Below, in pieces: positions 1,977 through 26,813 of a stretch of DNA of 30,691 bases; the stretch's first letter is position 1; each line of letters opens with the position of its first letter. Below the pieces are notes generated by a model that was given only the letters and a program-made list of their open reading frames with translations, searched no databases and was not told the origin of the DNA. The position numbers and the translations under genes are program-made. This stretch comes from a virus, in IMG/VR virus record IMGVR_UViG_3300030012_002028, positions 1 through 30,691 of that record; one strand, 5' to 3'.

Positions 1977-3853
1977 CTGATTGGTTTAGACGGAAGCCGG
2001 AGACAGAAGAACGGCATCTTGGTACGAGCAGCAATGTGGGTCTGTTTGGACTCCCATCGACAGCAGGTGTGAGGGTTGATGAAACTTCTGCCTTGCAGTT
2101 GTCAACTGTGTACGCCTGCGTTCGCATCATCTCAGAGTCAATCGCCAGCCTTCCGGTTCATGTCCATCGCAAGACACCAAACGGAGTGCGGGAAGCAAGA
2201 GAGTTGCCACTGACCAACGTGCTTGGTCAACAGGTCAACCCTGACTTGACTGCGTTCATGTTCTTTGAACTGATGGTGTCTCATGCTTGCCTTTATGGAA
2301 ACGCTTACGCGATCATTGAGCGTAACGCTCGCGGTCAGGTGACTGGGCTTGCTCCGATTGAACCCGCGTATGTCCAGGTTAACTTGACGGAATCAGGCCG
2401 CGTGGCTTACCGCATCACATCAAACAACACTGATGTTGCATTGCCCTCAGAGGACATCCTGCACATTCGTGGCCTTGGCCCTAACGGTTTGAAAGGTTAT
2501 TCACCCGTTGCTCTTGCGAGAGAAGCCATTGGTCTTGGCCTTGCATCTGAAAGATATGGTGCTGCCTACTTTGGTAATGCCGCGATGCCATCGGGTGTGT
2601 TGAGTGTGCCGGGCAAGTTGAGTGATGAGGCTTTCAACAACCTTCGTCAGTCTTGGGAAAACCTGCACCGTGGTGCATCAAACTCAGCTCGTGTTGCCTT
2701 GCTCGAAGGTGGGATTGAGTTCAAGCCACTGAGCCTGCCACCTAACGAAAGCCAGTTCCTACAGACTCGTAAGTTCCAGACGCTTGAGATTGCAAGGATG
2801 TATCGGGTTCCACCGACCCTGCTTGCTGAGTTGGATGGCTCTTCTTCCTACGGCTCGATTTACGAGTTGAACCGTGGCTTTGTCACTCACACCCTAACGC
2901 CTTGGGCTAGACGGATTGAGAACGAGCTGGAGAGCAAACTGCTTCCAAATGCTGACTACAAGATCACGTTCCATTTTGAAGAGATGTTGCGTGGTGACTT
3001 GGAGAGCAGATTCCGTGCGTATCAGTTGGCACGACAGGCTGGCTTCTTGTCGATCAATGATATCCGTAGAGCAGAACAACTAGATCCAATTGGCGAGAAT
3101 GGTGATGACTATCTCAGCCCATTGAATATGGAGAGATTGCAGCCTGGTCGGGCTACGTCTGAAAGAAGCATTGAACACCGTTCATTTGATCCTGCTGACC
3201 GTCAACGCATTGTTGATTCATTTAAACCTGCCCTGCTTGATTCACTCTCCGAAATGGTCGAACTTGAGATTGATGCAGTCGAGCAATATCGGGAAAAAGG
3301 GAATGAGCCTATTTTGAGATGGGCCAGCCGTTACTTCGCGTCTGAGTATCAACGTCAACTATTCACAATCATCTTGCCTGCTATTCGCAAATTCGCTTCA
3401 CAACTCCATTCAAGTGCGATTGCAGAAGTGGGTGAGATGGATGCGATCAAAGACGAAGTTCTGCGGAACATTGCTGACAGATTCACAATCAGACGGTCTG
3501 TGCGTGCTAGAAGCAATCTCCAGTCAGAGGACATTGATCGTGTTCTTGAAATCTGGAAAGAAGAGAAGGCTGAGACAATTCTGGACTCCGAAATGCGCAG
3601 GCTCGAAGGTGCTTTGATGCTTGAGTTCTACCGCAACGCTGGGGTAGAAGAAGTTCAGTGGGTCAACGGTCCAGGTCAAAAGTGGTCATCTCTCGAAGGT
3701 AGGCGTGTCCCAACTGGTGAGCCTTTTGTTCTGCGGGGAGAAACTGTCGTGTCTGATGATGGGGAAGAGTACGAAGCCCGAACTGATATTCGACATAGCC
3801 CACTAAACAGCAGTGACAACAGCACGATTAGGGCGGTTCGTAATGGCGACTGA
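1967..3853 (+). CDS. Portal protein (HK97 family) with MuF-like C-terminal extension
   Basis: Portal forming the dodecameric channel at the capsid vertex. The first 400 residues are a standard HK97 portal: 'TSALQLSTVYACVRIISES' near residue 40, 'ILHIRG', and 'RMYRVPPTLLAELDGSSSYG' in the clip/wing region. About 200 further residues follow, mostly charged helix, ending in 'WVNGPGQKWSSLEGRRV..GEPF'. That ending resembles the C-terminal motif of Mu gpF/SPP1 gp7 head-morphogenesis proteins but lacks their usual cysteines. No separate MuF gene exists nearby, so a portal-MuF fusion is inferred. The start is TTG 1967, with a strong AAGGGGGG at 1953-1960, overlapping the terL stop. Confidence 0.93.
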   Translation: MPLTDWFRRKPETEERHLGTSSNVGLFGLPSTAGVRVDETSALQLSTVYACVRIISESIASLPVHVHRKTPNGVREARELPLTNVLGQQVNPDLTAFMFFELMVSHACLYGNAYAIIERNARGQVTGLAPIEPAYVQVNLTESGRVAYRITSNNTDVALPSEDILHIRGLGPNGLKGYSPVALAREAIGLGLASERYGAAYFGNAAMPSGVLSVPGKLSDEAFNNLRQSWENLHRGASNSARVALLEGGIEFKPLSLPPNESQFLQTRKFQTLEIARMYRVPPTLLAELDGSSSYGSIYELNRGFVTHTLTPWARRIENELESKLLPNADYKITFHFEEMLRGDLESRFRAYQLARQAGFLSINDIRRAEQLDPIGENGDDYLSPLNMERLQPGRATSERSIEHRSFDPADRQRIVDSFKPALLDSLSEMVELEIDAVEQYREKGNEPILRWASRYFASEYQRQLFTIILPAIRKFASQLHSSAIAEVGEMDAIKDEVLRNIADRFTIRRSVRARSNLQSEDIDRVLEIWKEEKAETILDSEMRRLEGALMLEFYRNAGVEEVQWVNGPGQKWSSLEGRRVPTGEPFVLRGETVVSDDGEEYEARTDIRHSPLNSSDNSTIRAVRNGD

Positions 3854-21211: not shown

Positions 21212-21600
21212 AAGCAGAAACCATAAACTTGAAGGGCCAATCCTATGAATTGGTCAAATCAAGAGTGAAACGATTGCATACGCAATTTCCAGGGTCATCA
21301 ATCCAAACGGAAGTGATTGATAGCAAATACAATGAAGCCGGTTATCTGGCGAGTGTTGTTGTGCAGGCTACGATCACGGTCAGGCTTGAAGGCAATGAGA
21401 TACAAGTTGCACAAGGCATGTCGATGTCGGAGAGAAGTAGAGGCGGACAAATTGGCTTCCTAGAGAAGTGTGAAACCGCAGCAATTGGTAGGGCTTTAGC
21501 AAGCCTTGGGTTTATCTCAGACGGTACTGGATTCGCCAGTGGTGATGAGATGCAAAAGTTAGAAGCGCACGAAACTCGTGAGCAGAAGAAGGACTGGTAA
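21199..21600 (+). CDS. Single-strand annealing protein, Rad52/ERF-like
   Basis: A 133-residue protein with 'GFLEKCETAAIGRALASLGF' and 'FASGDEMQKLE', the signature of phage annealing proteins in which a cognate 'KTETSAIGRALA..G' helix precedes 'ASADE'. It partners with the upstream exonuclease and downstream SSB-like protein. An AAGGAG ribosome site lies 7 bases before ATG inside the exonuclease gene. The protein is short, so it may be a minimal core. Confidence 0.75.
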   Translation: MGLVKAETINLKGQSYELVKSRVKRLHTQFPGSSIQTEVIDSKYNEAGYLASVVVQATITVRLEGNEIQVAQGMSMSERSRGGQIGFLEKCETAAIGRALASLGFISDGTGFASGDEMQKLEAHETREQKKDW

Positions 21601-21956
21601 TGAACGACAATCAACAGTTTCAAGAAGTTGCTAAAGGTGGCTTGTTTATCAACAAGAGTAAACAGCCCGGATCAAATCAACCGGATTTCACGGGAAAGGT
21701 GACGTTACAAGATGGAACAGAACAAAGAATCAGTGGATGGAACGCAGTCGGGCAAAACTCTGGCCCGTACATCAACATCAAACTCTCTCAACAATCAGGC
21801 AGTACGAATGCAGGAAGCAAGCCCGCTGCTCAAGGCGATTCCATCTTCCCAACTAATCCAACTAATGAGCCAAGTGCATCCTTTGGGCAGCAGGTACAAC
21901 AGCAGCCAAACCAGCAGCAGTTGATGAGTCAGGGTCAGGATGAGATTCCATTTTGA
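21600..21956 (+). CDS. Single-stranded DNA-binding-like protein
   Basis: A 118-residue protein with an N-terminal beta domain ('GGLFINKSKQPGSNQPDFTG', 'ISGWNAVGQNSGPYINIKLS') like small phage SSB/DUF736-type folds, a Gln/Asn/Pro-rich linker (residues 85-110) and the terminal acidic tip 'QDEIPF'. That tip is the conserved partner-binding end of SSB proteins. The TAATG junction couples it to the annealing protein. Confidence 0.8.
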   Translation: MNDNQQFQEVAKGGLFINKSKQPGSNQPDFTGKVTLQDGTEQRISGWNAVGQNSGPYINIKLSQQSGSTNAGSKPAAQGDSIFPTNPTNEPSASFGQQVQQQPNQQQLMSQGQDEIPF

Positions 21957-22942
21957 CCCAAGCACAGGAGACAGTTGATTGTGTTAATCATCTATCCCTA
22001 TGTGCAGGAATCGCGGGCGTTGATCTCGGATTGCGTAAAGTGGTCCGAGGTCTGCGCACCGTGGCTATGGTGGAGAGGGAAGCCTTCTGCATCTCGCAGT
22101 TGGTGTCAAAGATGGAAACGGGTGAATTGGATTCGTGTCCTATCTACGCGGACCTACTCAGATTCCCTTGGCAAAAGTATTCAGGACTCGTGGACATCCT
22201 CTCTGCGGGATTCCCGTGCCAGCCATTTTCAAATGCAGGTCTACGTGAATCGACCGAGGATGAGCGACACCTCTGGCCCCACATCAAAACAGGGATCTCT
22301 ATTCTCGGATGCCCAGTCTGCTTCTTCGAGAACGTCGATGGAATCGCTTCCGCAAAGTCACCCGGATACCACTCAGTTCTCCACCATGTCCTCAGCGACT
22401 TGGAAGCAATGGGTTACAGAGCAACGGCAGGACAGTTCTCAGCGCAGGAAGTCGGCGCACCCCATCTCAGAAAGCGTTGGTTCATTCTTGGCTTGGCCCA
22501 CCCCAACTCCGATTCACGCAATCAGGGGGAATCACGACGAGCCAGTGGAGAAGTACCAGCAACGGGTCAGGGATTACGAAGAGGGCAGGGCGAAGGGCAA
22601 GCCGGGGAAAAGTCTTGGGGTTGCAGTGAACTGGCCTACGGCGAGTGCAAGGGACTGGAAGGATTCAGCCGGGATGAGTACGACTCGCTCGGATCGTCCG
22701 GGCCAAGCACGCAAAGCGGACCAGTTGCCGAGAGCGGTATTCAACGATGGCCCACAAGACCGGGACACAAACAACACGAGTGGGAGCCGCCAAGAGCAAT
22801 TGAACCCGGATTGGGTAGACATCCTGATGGGATTCCAGATCGGGTGGACAGACTTAGAGCCTTGGGGAACGCAGTAGTACCTCAAGTCGCAGCAAAAGCA
22901 TTCAGTGTGTTGTTCAGTCGTTTGAACACGCCAATTCTATAA
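21953..22942 (+). CDS. C5 cytosine-specific DNA methyltransferase
   Basis: A 329-residue Dcm-type enzyme transferring methyl from SAM to cytosine C5. Motif I is 'LSLCAGIAGVDLGL' (residues 13-26), motif IV 'GFPCQPFSNAG' with the catalytic Cys near residue 88, motif VI 'FFENVDG', motif VIII 'AQEVGAPHLRKRWFILG', and motifs IX/X 'RLRALGNAVVPQVA' near the end. The target-recognition region between VIII and IX (about residues 185-285) is Gly/Arg/Ser-rich and unusual. It starts at TTG 21953 with GGATGAG upstream, overlapping the SSB stop. A second frame across its 3' half also looks protein-like. Confidence 0.92.
   Translation: MTQAQETVDCVNHLSLCAGIAGVDLGLRKVVRGLRTVAMVEREAFCISQLVSKMETGELDSCPIYADLLRFPWQKYSGLVDILSAGFPCQPFSNAGLRESTEDERHLWPHIKTGISILGCPVCFFENVDGIASAKSPGYHSVLHHVLSDLEAMGYRATAGQFSAQEVGAPHLRKRWFILGLAHPNSDSRNQGESRRASGEVPATGQGLRRGQGEGQAGEKSWGCSELAYGECKGLEGFSRDEYDSLGSSGPSTQSGPVAESGIQRWPTRPGHKQHEWEPPRAIEPGLGRHPDGIPDRVDRLRALGNAVVPQVAAKAFSVLFSRLNTPIL
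22482..22877 (+). other. Overprinted +1 frame with methyltransferase-type C-terminal motifs
   Basis: Within the methyltransferase gene, the +1 frame is open from 21975 to the TAG at 22875. From about 22482 it reads 'LAWPTPTP' (22494 on), 'KYQQRVRDYEEGRAKGKPGK', 'NWPTASARDWK' (from 22632) and 'QLNPDWVDILMGFQIGWTDL' near 22797-22856. Repeated 'WPTPTA.D' and 'LNP.WVE.LMGFP.GWT' are the C-terminal hallmarks of another set of phage Dcm-like proteins. No good start lies inside; translation would need a +1 shift from the methyltransferase or an internal ATG such as 22386. Confidence 0.5.
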
Positions 22943-22963
22943 CTACCAAAGGAAAGGAATCCG

Positions 22964-23704
22964 ATGAGTGAAACGAAAGAGCGTAAAAGCAGAGTGCCTT
23001 GGGTCAAGTTCTACCCAGATGACTACATCGGCGGGACAAACTTTCTACCGCTTGAAGCAAGGGGGGCGTTCTGGCAACTCTGTGCTTTGCAGGCCGCAGG
23101 TCACAAGCTGCCAAACAACTTCGATCAACTTTGTATCGCATGTCCAGGGTTAAACAACTCGATTTGGAGTTTGATCCGCGACAAGTTTGAAGTGATGGAA
23201 GATGAATCTGGCGAGCAATACTTAGCCAACCCACGCATGTCAGACGAACGTGAAAAGGCTGAGAAAGAAGCACGGAACAATCGAGAAGCAGTCAGAAAGA
23301 GTCGTGCAAAGTCTCAAAAAAGTAAGGGTGACGTAATGGTTACGAAACCGGCCCAGAACCAGAACCAGAACCAGAACCAAATCCAGAACCAAAACCCTCT
23401 CCCCCCTGAGTCCCCCCAAGGGGACGAGAGTGAGGGGGTTCTTTCTCAGCAAGGTGTAAAACCGTCTGAGATCCTCTCTGAGTGGCTTGAATACTTTAGG
23501 AATGCTGGCGGTCGTTATAAGATCGGGAAAGCGTCAGAAGAGAAACTAGGTCGGTTACTGGGCAAGATGAACCCAGACGATGTGCAGCTCATGTTCTCAG
23601 CGTTGGAAGAAGAGCGAGTAGACAACTTGAACAAGGACAAAAGATGGGAACATCCGGTCGCAAGAATCATTGCAGAAGCAAGAACTTTCGCAGCCGCTCG
23701 GTAG
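22964..23704 (+). CDS. DUF1376/YdaU-like replication protein
   Basis: A 246-residue two-domain protein of the type that opens phage replication (replisome organiser/helicase loader-like). The N-terminal DUF1376 winged helix is 'WVKFYPDDYIGGTNFLPLEA' then 'GAFWQLCALQAAGHKLPNN'. A basic helix (residues 85-115) and an Asn/Gln linker coded by CCAGAA hexamers follow, and a C-terminal helical domain begins near 'PSEILSEWLEYFRNAGG'. The ribosome site AAAGGAAAGGA is strong. It is the only replication-initiation candidate in the window. Confidence 0.8.
   Translation: MSETKERKSRVPWVKFYPDDYIGGTNFLPLEARGAFWQLCALQAAGHKLPNNFDQLCIACPGLNNSIWSLIRDKFEVMEDESGEQYLANPRMSDEREKAEKEARNNREAVRKSRAKSQKSKGDVMVTKPAQNQNQNQNQIQNQNPLPPESPQGDESEGVLSQQGVKPSEILSEWLEYFRNAGGRYKIGKASEEKLGRLLGKMNPDDVQLMFSALEEERVDNLNKDKRWEHPVARIIAEARTFAAAR
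23353..23394 (+). repeat. CCAGAA hexamer repeat in DUF1376 linker
   Basis: Seven 6-bp units, five exactly CCAGAA and two variants (CCAAAT, CCAAAA), encode alternating Asn and Gln. It is an in-frame microsatellite that can vary in copy number without breaking the protein. Confidence 0.9.
23401..23438 (+). other. GC-rich hairpin inside coding sequence
   Basis: GTCCCC (23410-23415) pairs with GGGGAC (23420-23425) around CCAA, and an outer C5 (23401-23406) can pair with G5 (23434-23438). TTCTTTCT follows. It lies at the boundary between linker and C-terminal domain and could slow transcription or translation. Confidence 0.5.
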
Positions 23705-25637: not shown

Positions 25638-25795
25638 GATGCGGTCAATGCGATACCGAACTCATTCACGGTGGTAGCCATGATGGCGATGACTACGGGC
25701 GTGACTCATTCTTGATCGTCAATAATTACACATGCCCAGAGTGCCATGTGTTGGTTCTTGAACACATACCGAAAACAGAAGATGATGATGATTGA
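25634..25795 (+). CDS. Small zinc-ribbon protein
   Basis: A 53-residue protein with two knuckles, 'CGQC' (residues 3-6) and 'CPEC' (34-37), separated by 'IHGGSHDGDDYGRDSF' and ending in acidic 'TEDDDD'. It is typical of small phage zinc ribbons of unknown role. It starts in an ATGA overlap and its own last codons contain the starts of the next gene, so the three genes are coupled. Confidence 0.65.
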   Translation: MRCGQCDTELIHGGSHDGDDYGRDSFLIVNNYTCPECHVLVLEHIPKTEDDDD

Positions 25796-26813
25796 GTTTG
25801 TTGCTGCTGCACTTACTTTCAGCTCAGGCCCACCCACTGATCCTGATGCAGTGGCAATGTGGATTGATGACTTGGGGCGTTTGACACCGTTTGGTCGAAC
25901 ATTTGATGTTTACATCCAAACCGGGTTTGACCCGGACTTCTCATACCCCAACGGTGATCCACGCCGCCCGTACATGATCGGTAGTACCCGTGGGAGCGAA
26001 TCGCCAACTCGTGCATTTGGATGGGCTATCGAAGGGGACATATTCAAGAACAGCAGGCCAGACCACTTGTATCCGTGGCTAGAGAACTGCCAAGAGTGTA
26101 TTGACTACTGGACAATAGACACAGGGATTGAGTGTCCTGTTCCCGGTGCTTACTGGGACTGCATTCAAGCCAACCCCTACCAGCGTTGGATGTATCTGGG
26201 TATGAACTTCACCCCGATCAACTGGGTCTTTGAAGGCCCACAGGGATGCTGTCCCCGGACGGCTGATCTCGTTGATCTTGAGTACGCATGGTGTGACTCT
26301 TGGATTCTGCATGGCCCACTCGGCAAGAAATACGGCGACTCGCAGCAATACAAGTACCCGTTGGTTCAGCAGCAGCACAAGGATCTGATTGATTCACCCG
26401 TACTTAAGTTCTGGCCTCATCGTAAGGACATAGTAGGGGAACGATGCTGCTCTGCTCCATCGCAGAATGACTACGGTGATTTGATCCGTTGGAACGCCGA
26501 TGTTGATTGGATGAGTGAGAAATGGCCTGGTTCGTTTCACATCGCTAGGTTCACTGGTCCCAACTACTTCTCGTCTGGTGGCGTTGTTCGCTTTGCTTGT
26601 GGCAACAACCATCCGTGCGAGCCGTCGTATTACTCAGTGAACTACTACCCAGATAACTCCTGCCCATCTGACTTGAATGAGGATGGGATGGTTGGCTTCC
26701 AAGACTTGCTGCAAGTGCTTGGTGATGTTGCAGGATTCAAATATCACCCACAAACTAACAATGGCTTCAATGCCATTATCAAAGTTCTTTCTGAGTGGGG
26801 GGATTGTGGGTGA
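25788..26813 (+). CDS. Secreted-like protein with dockerin/EF-hand-like C-terminus
   Basis: A 341-residue protein rich in Trp, Tyr, Pro and paired Cys ('GCCPRT', 'ERCCSAPS'), suggesting an extracytoplasmic fold. The N-terminus has a short hydrophobic segment ('MIEFVAAALTFSSG') without basic residues, a poor signal peptide. The last 50 residues, 'CPSDLNEDGMVGFQDLLQVL' then 'NGFNAIIKVLSEWGDCG', match the two-helix dockerin type I/EF-hand ending widespread in Planctomycetota. Asp/Asn positions D-N-D (in 'DLNEDGMVGFQD') could hold calcium. Three in-frame ATGs (25782, 25785, 25788) compete as start. Confidence 0.65.
   Translation: MIEFVAAALTFSSGPPTDPDAVAMWIDDLGRLTPFGRTFDVYIQTGFDPDFSYPNGDPRRPYMIGSTRGSESPTRAFGWAIEGDIFKNSRPDHLYPWLENCQECIDYWTIDTGIECPVPGAYWDCIQANPYQRWMYLGMNFTPINWVFEGPQGCCPRTADLVDLEYAWCDSWILHGPLGKKYGDSQQYKYPLVQQQHKDLIDSPVLKFWPHRKDIVGERCCSAPSQNDYGDLIRWNADVDWMSEKWPGSFHIARFTGPNYFSSGGVVRFACGNNHPCEPSYYSVNYYPDNSCPSDLNEDGMVGFQDLLQVLGDVAGFKYHPQTNNGFNAIIKVLSEWGDCG

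Follow-up and report, generated by a model that had tools for sequence, protein, structure and literature searches.

Two overlapping frames at a phage methyltransferase locus

The DNA analyzed here (the window) comprises 30,691 of the 31,025 bases of IMG/VR virus record IMGVR_UViG_3300030012_002028 and contains, between positions 21953 and 22942, a gene for a C5-cytosine methyltransferase that we call alpha and whose reading frame we take as frame 0. Over nearly the whole of its length alpha is accompanied by a second open reading frame (ORF), beta, in the +1 frame. The conserved motifs of this enzyme class are partitioned between the two: alpha has motifs I-VIII and X and lacks motif IX, which forms the C-terminal end of beta. 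The features of the locus are as follows.

21953-22942, + strand: alpha, C5-cytosine methyltransferase in frame 0, 329 residues (Pfam, PHROG, AlphaFold/Foldseek)
21966-21970, + strand: AGGAG, Shine-Dalgarno-like, 4 nucleotides before TTG 21975 and 10 nucleotides before GTG 21981 (sequence)
21975-22877, + strand: beta, +1 ORF of 300 residues, starting at TTG 21975 or GTG 21981, stop TAG at 22875-22877 (ORF, PHROG, constraint)
22214-22222, + strand: alpha motif IV, PCQ (Cys89) (sequence)
22328-22336, + strand: alpha motif VI, ENV (sequence)
22454-22477, + strand: alpha motif VIII region, GAPHLRKR (sequence)
22800-22847, + strand: motif IX in the +1 frame, beta LNPDWVDILMGFQIGW; the frame 0 peptide here is unrelated (around EPGLGRHPDGIPDRV)
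22856-22885, + strand: alpha motif X, RALGNAVVPQ, in frame 0; the beta stop lies inside this stretch (sequence)

Alpha matches Pfam DNA_methylase (2e-26) and phrog_363 (2.7e-53), and PADLOC returns general methyltransferase matches for alpha and no match for beta. Its TTG start overlaps the stop of an upstream ORF (21600-21956). The AlphaFold model of alpha is mostly confident over the catalytic core (residues 11-182), with a predicted local distance difference test score (pLDDT) mostly above 90, contains the motif X helix, and matches M.HhaI in Foldseek with 1.6e-14 over 173 columns. In M.HhaI the small domain serves target binding, as stated in the relevant passage of PMC3404938. Such a domain is not recognizable in alpha, since the profile match to M.HhaI ends at HhaI residue 181 and alpha residues 193-261 and 284-302 are unstructured in the model.

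From stop to stop the open +1 frame spans 306 codons (21957-22877). Beta matches phrog_1008 (3.4e-13) over residues 72-294 (223 residues) and phrog_26627 (5.9e-6), and 72 of 74 beta members match phrog_1008 (best 2.4e-37). This is a 'DNA methyltransferase' family distinct from alpha's phrog_363, both families matching the same stretch of DNA. The end of the phrog_1008 profile also weakly matches motif X of alpha (E 0.022), so that some members of this family probably hold motifs IX and X in one chain. NCBIfam gave no beta match at E values up to 1, and a weak Metallophos match, seen for the window protein (E 0.018, with 16 bits where the cut-off is 21.5) and in 5 of the 74 members, was judged to be due to chance.

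Conservation, constraint and start codons of the +1 frame

Viral contigs were collected without any part being played by the +1 frame. With alpha itself 15 close viral loci were found, and 80 more with an alpha profile; the resulting set of 102 loci consists of 95 viral contigs, 6 named phages and the window locus. A beta profile built from 18 of the 102 matched the +1 frame in every one of them, and frame 0 or +2 in none. The motif IX pattern is present in +1 only in 72 loci, in no frame in 30 and never in frame 0, and the single-chain arrangement of the M.HhaI type, with motifs I-X in one chain, is found neither in the window nor across the 102 loci. A further 88 loci comprise 6 phages, 2 plasmids and 80 bacterial genome contigs found by an alpha profile (by record title Pseudomonadota, Bacillota, Bacteroidota, Actinomycetota, Verrucomicrobia, Chloroflexi and others), and beta lies in +1 alone in 83 of these.

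Four of the 88, from Streptomyces and Actinomadura (L165, L170, L179 and L180), have a beta match that falls partly in +1 and partly in frame 0, motif IX being in the latter. Their +1 ORF contains stretches resembling PTPRASDG and KGGPNQRGSKGDL and ends just before the in-frame motif IX, so these loci are split at another place. In hhalign, motif IX of beta pairs with the one that these four chains carry in frame (92%, 7e-7, 22 columns), and the actinobacterial motif IX-X segment weakly resembles plant DRM enzymes (PDB match, E 0.56). In Mycobacterium phage Llama (L108) alpha itself shifts from one frame to another, and beta lies in +2 with respect to it; the shift may be genuine or a sequence fault, and the methyltransferase frame is annotated there as two overlapping 'DNA methyltransferase' genes (74 and 75). 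In L013 and L014 (at about 2501-3817) query residues 207-266 are matched twice over within the variable stretch that separates motifs VIII and X, as though a single duplication of the target-recognition segment had affected both frames together.

For the 12 named phages of the window family, existing annotations differ as to which frame they record. Alpha alone is annotated in 7 (ABMM1, ST101-KPC2phi6.1, C75C1, RcAqua, ShroomBoi, Mel-JY01 and R9.1), beta alone, with the methyltransferase frame unannotated, in 2 (Cr-LKS3, L019, and Synechococcus phage Ssp-JY39, L105), both frames in 2 (Jacopo and K1ind2), and alpha in two pieces in 1 (Llama).

None of 2000 synonymous codon shuffles of frame 0 in the window leaves the +1 frame open for 306 codons, the mean longest run being 120. 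Across 183 loci (189 less 6 with an alpha under 600 nucleotides) the longest open +1 run reaches at least 80% of alpha in 164, as against 4-20% of synonymous shuffles, depending on the group; in the +2 frame of the same loci the median longest open run is 0.16-0.24 of alpha. The raw match counts of 102/102 and 83/88 overstate the independent evidence, because the +1 profile also scores shuffled alpha. The shuffle test covered 189 of the 190 loci, with 20 synonymous shuffles per locus and stops masked equally. With a 74-row beta profile the real +1 frame scores above all 20 of its own shuffles in 184 of the 189; median bits, real versus shuffled, are 296 versus 126 for 16 close loci, 310 versus 140 for 79 viral loci, 96 versus 33 for 12 named phages, 86 versus 29 for 2 plasmids and 162 versus 78 for 80 genome loci. 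Five loci fall short of this: L165 and L180, both with their motif IX in frame 0, L182, L190, and L108, whose alpha is frame-broken in the record. Because the 74-row profile was built from many of the viral loci tested, the test was repeated with held-out profiles. An 11-row profile of close relatives places the +1 frame above all shuffles in 79/79 viral loci (medians 147 versus 44 bits), 11/12 named phages, 2/2 plasmids and 69/80 genome loci, and a 63-row viral profile does so in 16/16 close loci, 11/12 named phages, 2/2 plasmids and 77/80 genome loci. The motif IX pattern itself is present in the real +1 frame of 133/189 loci, in the real +2 frame of 0/189 and in 0.26% of shuffles.

Synonymous constraint was measured over 85 aligned alpha genes (1661 pairs at 45-75% identity, 17 of the 102 loci having been dropped as near-duplicate or incomplete) by setting the identity of four-fold sites, taken where the residue is conserved, against what the codon usage of each gene would predict. 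The excess constraint is confined to the overlap, as expected of an independently translated overlapping pair. The stretches that define it are these.

22034-22183, + strand: beta N-terminal patch, four-fold identity 0.59-0.65 versus about 0.29; residues 21-50 at pLDDT 78-86
22364-22453, + strand: beta middle patch (around TMSSATWKQWVTEQRQDSSQRRK), four-fold identity 0.72-0.80 versus 0.30; predicted helix at residues 140-161, pLDDT about 92-96
22784-22843, + strand: strongest constraint, over motif IX, four-fold identity 0.80 versus 0.30
22874-22933, + strand: internal negative control, alpha coding past the beta stop, four-fold identity 0.32 versus 0.28

Four-fold identity is 0.54-0.65 against about 0.29 over 22034-22213, drops to 0.36 against 0.30 at 22214-22273, where the beta model is disordered, and stands at 0.80 against 0.30 at 22394-22453. 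Over motif IX the differences at alpha codon positions 1, 2 and 3 are 0.53, 0.28 and 0.33, the most variable position being 1, the wobble position of beta, and not 3; conservation in this stretch is higher in beta (0.56) than in alpha (0.46). The beta model has confident parts at about residues 20-58, 131-160, 190-210 and 276-290, three of which coincide with constrained patches, the fourth (190-210) lying in a poorly conserved stretch.

The beginning of the two frames could be compared at 82 of these 85 loci, those with an alignable start, by taking the nearest alpha and beta start codons. In 68 of the 82 the two starts lie within 5 bases of each other, most often as ATGTG (37 loci, with beta starting at ATG and alpha at GTG), and otherwise as ATGAATG (7), ATGCATG (7), ATGACATG (5) or other pairs (12). 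A Shine-Dalgarno-like stretch, by a loose pattern, is found at most 18 bases upstream of 53 of the 68 close pairs, and close pairs are present in 29 of 39 clusters of upstream sequence. Shuffled upstream DNA gives a close pair in 3.1% of cases, a figure kept down in part by the many shuffles in which a usable start is missing. The window has a start distance of 22 bases, from alpha TTG 21953 to beta TTG 21975 (or GTG 21981). Both a coextensive and a nested form of beta seem to exist, since among the 80 bacterial genome loci there are 32 in which the beta match sets in no earlier than profile position 60, and the annotated +1 gene of K1ind2 and Jacopo starts well inside alpha.

These results extend, and in part correct, the initial annotation of the locus, which had described two protein C-termini overprinted at 22482-22877. 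Every peptide it quoted is found in its place: 'WPTPTP', 'WPTASARDWK' and 'LNPDWVDILMGFQIGWTDL' lie within the last 131 codons of the +1 frame, 'GLAHPNSD' shares its bases with 'LAWPTPTP', and 'DGIPDRVDRLRALGNA' likewise with 'LMGFQIGWTDLEPWG'. The overlap is real and was drawn too short, the conserved overlap taking in nearly the whole +1 ORF, and the 'full set' of motifs ascribed to frame 0 proves to be a set without motif IX. Independent homologues of the +1 segment exist, and the synonymous sites of homologous loci show excess constraint within the overlap only. Frequent +1 stops, which would have told against the second frame, are not seen in the relatives. Of loci L001-L102, the 101 for which the set includes an alpha gene were screened for a +1 stop lying beyond codon 20 but short of motif IX or of 90% of alpha, and five carry one (L007, L018, L059, L085 and L097). 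In L018 and L097 this stop lies near the start, and a later beta start would explain it.

Known two-chain enzymes and MM1-type enzymes

The principle of a C5 methyltransferase made of two chains is already known. M.EcoHK31I, which recognizes YGGCCR, has its small ORF inside the large ORF in another frame, and M.AquI is encoded by overlapping genes. In the passages of PMC3404938 that deal with these enzymes, the large subunit of M.EcoHK31I has motifs I-VIII and X and the small subunit motif IX, the predicted target recognition domain (TRD) is assigned to the large subunit, and M.AquI is described as two chains with motif IX in the smaller. As far as that description goes, the window pair shows the M.EcoHK31I partition, alpha having the motif set of its large chain and beta, in another frame within the large-chain gene, carrying motif IX as its small chain does. 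It differs in that beta is nearly coextensive with alpha, with starts within 5 bases in most loci examined, has a conserved N-terminal part, and is found in phages and in bacteria of several phyla. The arrangement is not of the M.AquI type, whose small chain holds motifs IX and X, whereas motif X here stays in alpha.

Total overlap in different frames has also been printed, for C5 methyltransferase ORFs of streptococcal phages (the 5093 group and MM1) and of Tn5252, and the section of PMC5601072 on these overlapping ORFs proposes no subunit role. The part of the phage 5093 record that was covered lists no methyltransferase gene. MM1 resembles the window in its total overlap and differs in having motif IX in the main ORF and not in the nested +1 ORF. 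The 'Mte8-like' ORF of coliphage K1ind2 and two genes of Paenibacillus larvae phage Jacopo, annotated as a 'DNA methyltransferase' pair, belong to the window family by profile and have beta inside alpha in +1, with the difference that the annotated beta starts well inside alpha and not at the alpha start. Among the matches listed in the open-licence literature there is no description of the paired start codons or of the breadth of the arrangement, which is not proof of absence. Given the M.EcoHK31I partition and the printed streptococcal and Tn5252 overlaps, what is new here is not the two-chain principle. It is the near full-length overlap, the paired starts, the conserved N-terminal part of beta and the wide distribution, together with the finding that phage enzymes of the MM1 type, which have motif IX already, carry a related +1 companion as well.

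The MM1-type enzymes had been taken as a negative control (79 loci, of which 72 were used, the others being under 250 codons or containing N). In MM1 itself (L192:7480-8637) the main ORF has an in-frame motif IX, LTPRECWRLQGFPDWAF, and the nested +1 ORF has none; in enzymes of this type LTPRECWRLQGFPDW stands in frame at the place corresponding to beta motif IX, and the motif IX pattern is in frame 0 in 61 of the 72 and in +1 in 2. They were rejected as a clean negative control, codons 41-180, beneath the nested +1 ORF, being constrained (four-fold identity 0.47-0.88 versus about 0.31), while codons 1-40 and 181-380 are at background (0.27-0.39 versus about 0.31). At codons 161-180 the position differences are 0.36/0.19/0.19. 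The window-family beta profile scores above all own shuffles in only 44 of the 72 loci (30 versus 15 bits), so that the relationship of the MM1-type +1 protein to beta is weak. The nested protein aligns with the middle part of beta (hhalign 96%, 1e-9, part of which is alpha shadow). The consensus of 70 nested proteins ends in SLSDILEe.V.ekyFLS (capitals, at least 80%).

A probable single enzyme from two frames, and the alternatives

From the conservation and constraint of both frames, the motif partition, the start geometry and the distribution, we consider it very probable that alpha and beta are a dual-coding gene pair, both frames being translated from their own starts and the proteins assembling into one 5-methylcytosine (m5C) methyltransferase. 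Judged on sequence evidence, the production of both proteins by separate initiation is strongly supported, because constraint follows the boundaries of beta, the +1 frame is open, independent homologues exist and the start codons are conserved. The initial annotation had put forward production of both, by a frameshift or an internal start; the separate start fits these observations and the frameshift does not. The simplest and most likely reading of the pair is a two-subunit enzyme to which beta gives motif IX, and beta probably supplies target recognition as well. One mRNA segment would thus be read in frame 0 to give alpha, responsible for cofactor binding and catalysis (motifs I-VIII and X), and in +1 to give beta, with motif IX and probably the target-recognition segment. 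Each protein would initiate at its own codon, the two codons overlapping or lying within 5 bases in most relatives and 22 bases apart in the window, and the subunits would then assemble into an active m5C methyltransferase whose methylation would most simply protect phage DNA from host restriction.

If true, two conserved proteins of about 300 residues share nearly all of their DNA, often with overlapping starts, in a long and widespread dual-coding pair. This would explain why one DNA stretch has given rise to two PHROG 'DNA methyltransferase' families, and why annotators have chosen alpha, beta or both, several public records showing one protein only. Phage methyltransferases cloned as alpha alone may then be inactive for want of beta. 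The pair would also offer a natural system for studying how overprinting of an ancient enzyme gives rise to a new protein, and how two frames may be served by a single ribosome-binding site.

Several observations weigh against this explanation as a whole. The AlphaFold model of the beta monomer is poor (mean pLDDT 59.5, predicted template modelling score 0.29), a PDB fold search with it gave no match, and Pfam gave scattered weak matches to the 74 beta members, with no model in more than 5 of the 74 and a best E of 0.0017. The predicted TRD of M.EcoHK31I is placed in the large subunit in the passages of PMC3404938 concerned, unlike the one proposed here for beta. The beta ORF is broken into two parts by a single in-frame stop in L007 (1691-1693, just upstream of motif IX) and in L085 (2117-2119), and both cases look like true interruptions. 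As to the starts, the window is among the 14 of 82 loci without starts within 5 nucleotides, both its starts being TTG, and both starts are present in 13.2% of upstream shuffles, about 23% of which have a close pair. Pairwise identity exceeds that of shuffles in +2 too (mean +0.08, versus +0.12 in +1), so that taken alone it is weak evidence. Finally, the whole-gene four-fold identity of alpha shows a modest and uneven excess over neighbouring control genes chosen by best-scoring frame (alpha/control, by rising identity band: 0.48/0.36, 0.51/0.48, 0.54/0.57, 0.56/0.47, 0.62/0.62, 0.73/0.65 and 0.87/0.70); compared with this contrast, the region-resolved constraint test is the informative one.

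Conservation in frame 0 casts a shadow on +1, the profile scoring synonymous alpha shuffles of viral loci at medians of 126-140 bits, and naive homology searches overstate beta accordingly. That the +1 frame is nothing beyond this shadow, and untranslated, is nevertheless scarcely credible, given that held-out profiles separate the real frame from its shuffles in 79/79 and 16/16 viral loci, constraint rises and falls with the limits of beta, over motif IX variation is greatest at codon position 1, the motif IX pattern never turns up in +2 and hardly ever in shuffles, and the paired starts are conserved. A programmed frameshift, in which alpha is begun and slips to +1 near motif VIII to yield a fusion with the C-terminus of beta, has in its favour that the frames share their DNA and that a slip around 22480 would put motifs I-IX in one chain. 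Such a fusion would lose motif X, and it leaves the constraint on the N-terminal half of beta (22034-22183) needless; we set frameshifting aside as very unlikely, with no search made for slippery sites, because beta has its own conserved start, adjoining that of alpha in 68 of 82 loci. It is more improbable still that the two C-termini are only evolutionary frame relatives, left when a canonical enzyme once underwent two frameshifts that compensated each other, with only one of the frames still alive in any genome. The initial annotation had raised this, and motif IX does stand in the methyltransferase frame in 4 of the 88 loci, all actinobacterial, and in MM1-type enzymes, so events of this kind may have taken place. 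They are no substitute for dual coding, since in 164 of 183 loci one and the same genome has both frames open, and both are constrained. Nor is there support for beta as an alternative C-terminus of alpha, as had been envisaged. Beta is better seen as a partner, because it is a separate, nearly coextensive protein holding the motif that alpha lacks.

The alternative with most to recommend it, although we think it unlikely, is that both proteins are made and alpha works alone, beta being a separate overprinted regulator, chaperone or counter-defence factor. The MM1-type enzymes, with motif IX in frame in 61 of 72, keep a constrained +1 companion (up to 0.88 versus 0.31) with its conserved SLSDILE...FLS end, and the four Streptomyces and Actinomadura +1 ORFs end just before an in-frame motif IX. 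Against an alpha that works alone stand the motif IX at the end of beta, without which alpha is left in the window family, the largely unstructured prediction for alpha between motifs VIII and X, and M.EcoHK31I, reported in the passages cited above as two polypeptides with the same motif partition. A related companion lacking motif IX in enzymes that already have it also counts against our preferred two-subunit reading; because the companion exists where the main chain has motif IX, the supply of that motif is not the sole reason for the +1 protein, and beta may have a role beyond bringing motif IX. Tentatively, and with slightly more doubt than confidence, we propose that phage C5 methyltransferase genes have, from early on and as a general rule, had a +1 companion, which arose by overprinting of the catalytic domain and became an essential folding or regulatory partner. 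In one large clade the companion would then have captured motif IX, giving the two-frame heterodimer with paired, often overlapping starts, and MM1-type enzymes would keep the companion despite motif IX in the main chain.

Around the locus (21500-23100) there are no promoter- or terminator-like sites, and Rfam and tRNA scans of the window found nothing. A 355-residue ORF at 25746-26813 is without a PHROG match at 1e-5. Elsewhere the window carries genes of a tailed phage, including terminase, portal, major head protein, tape measure and exonuclease VIII-like genes.

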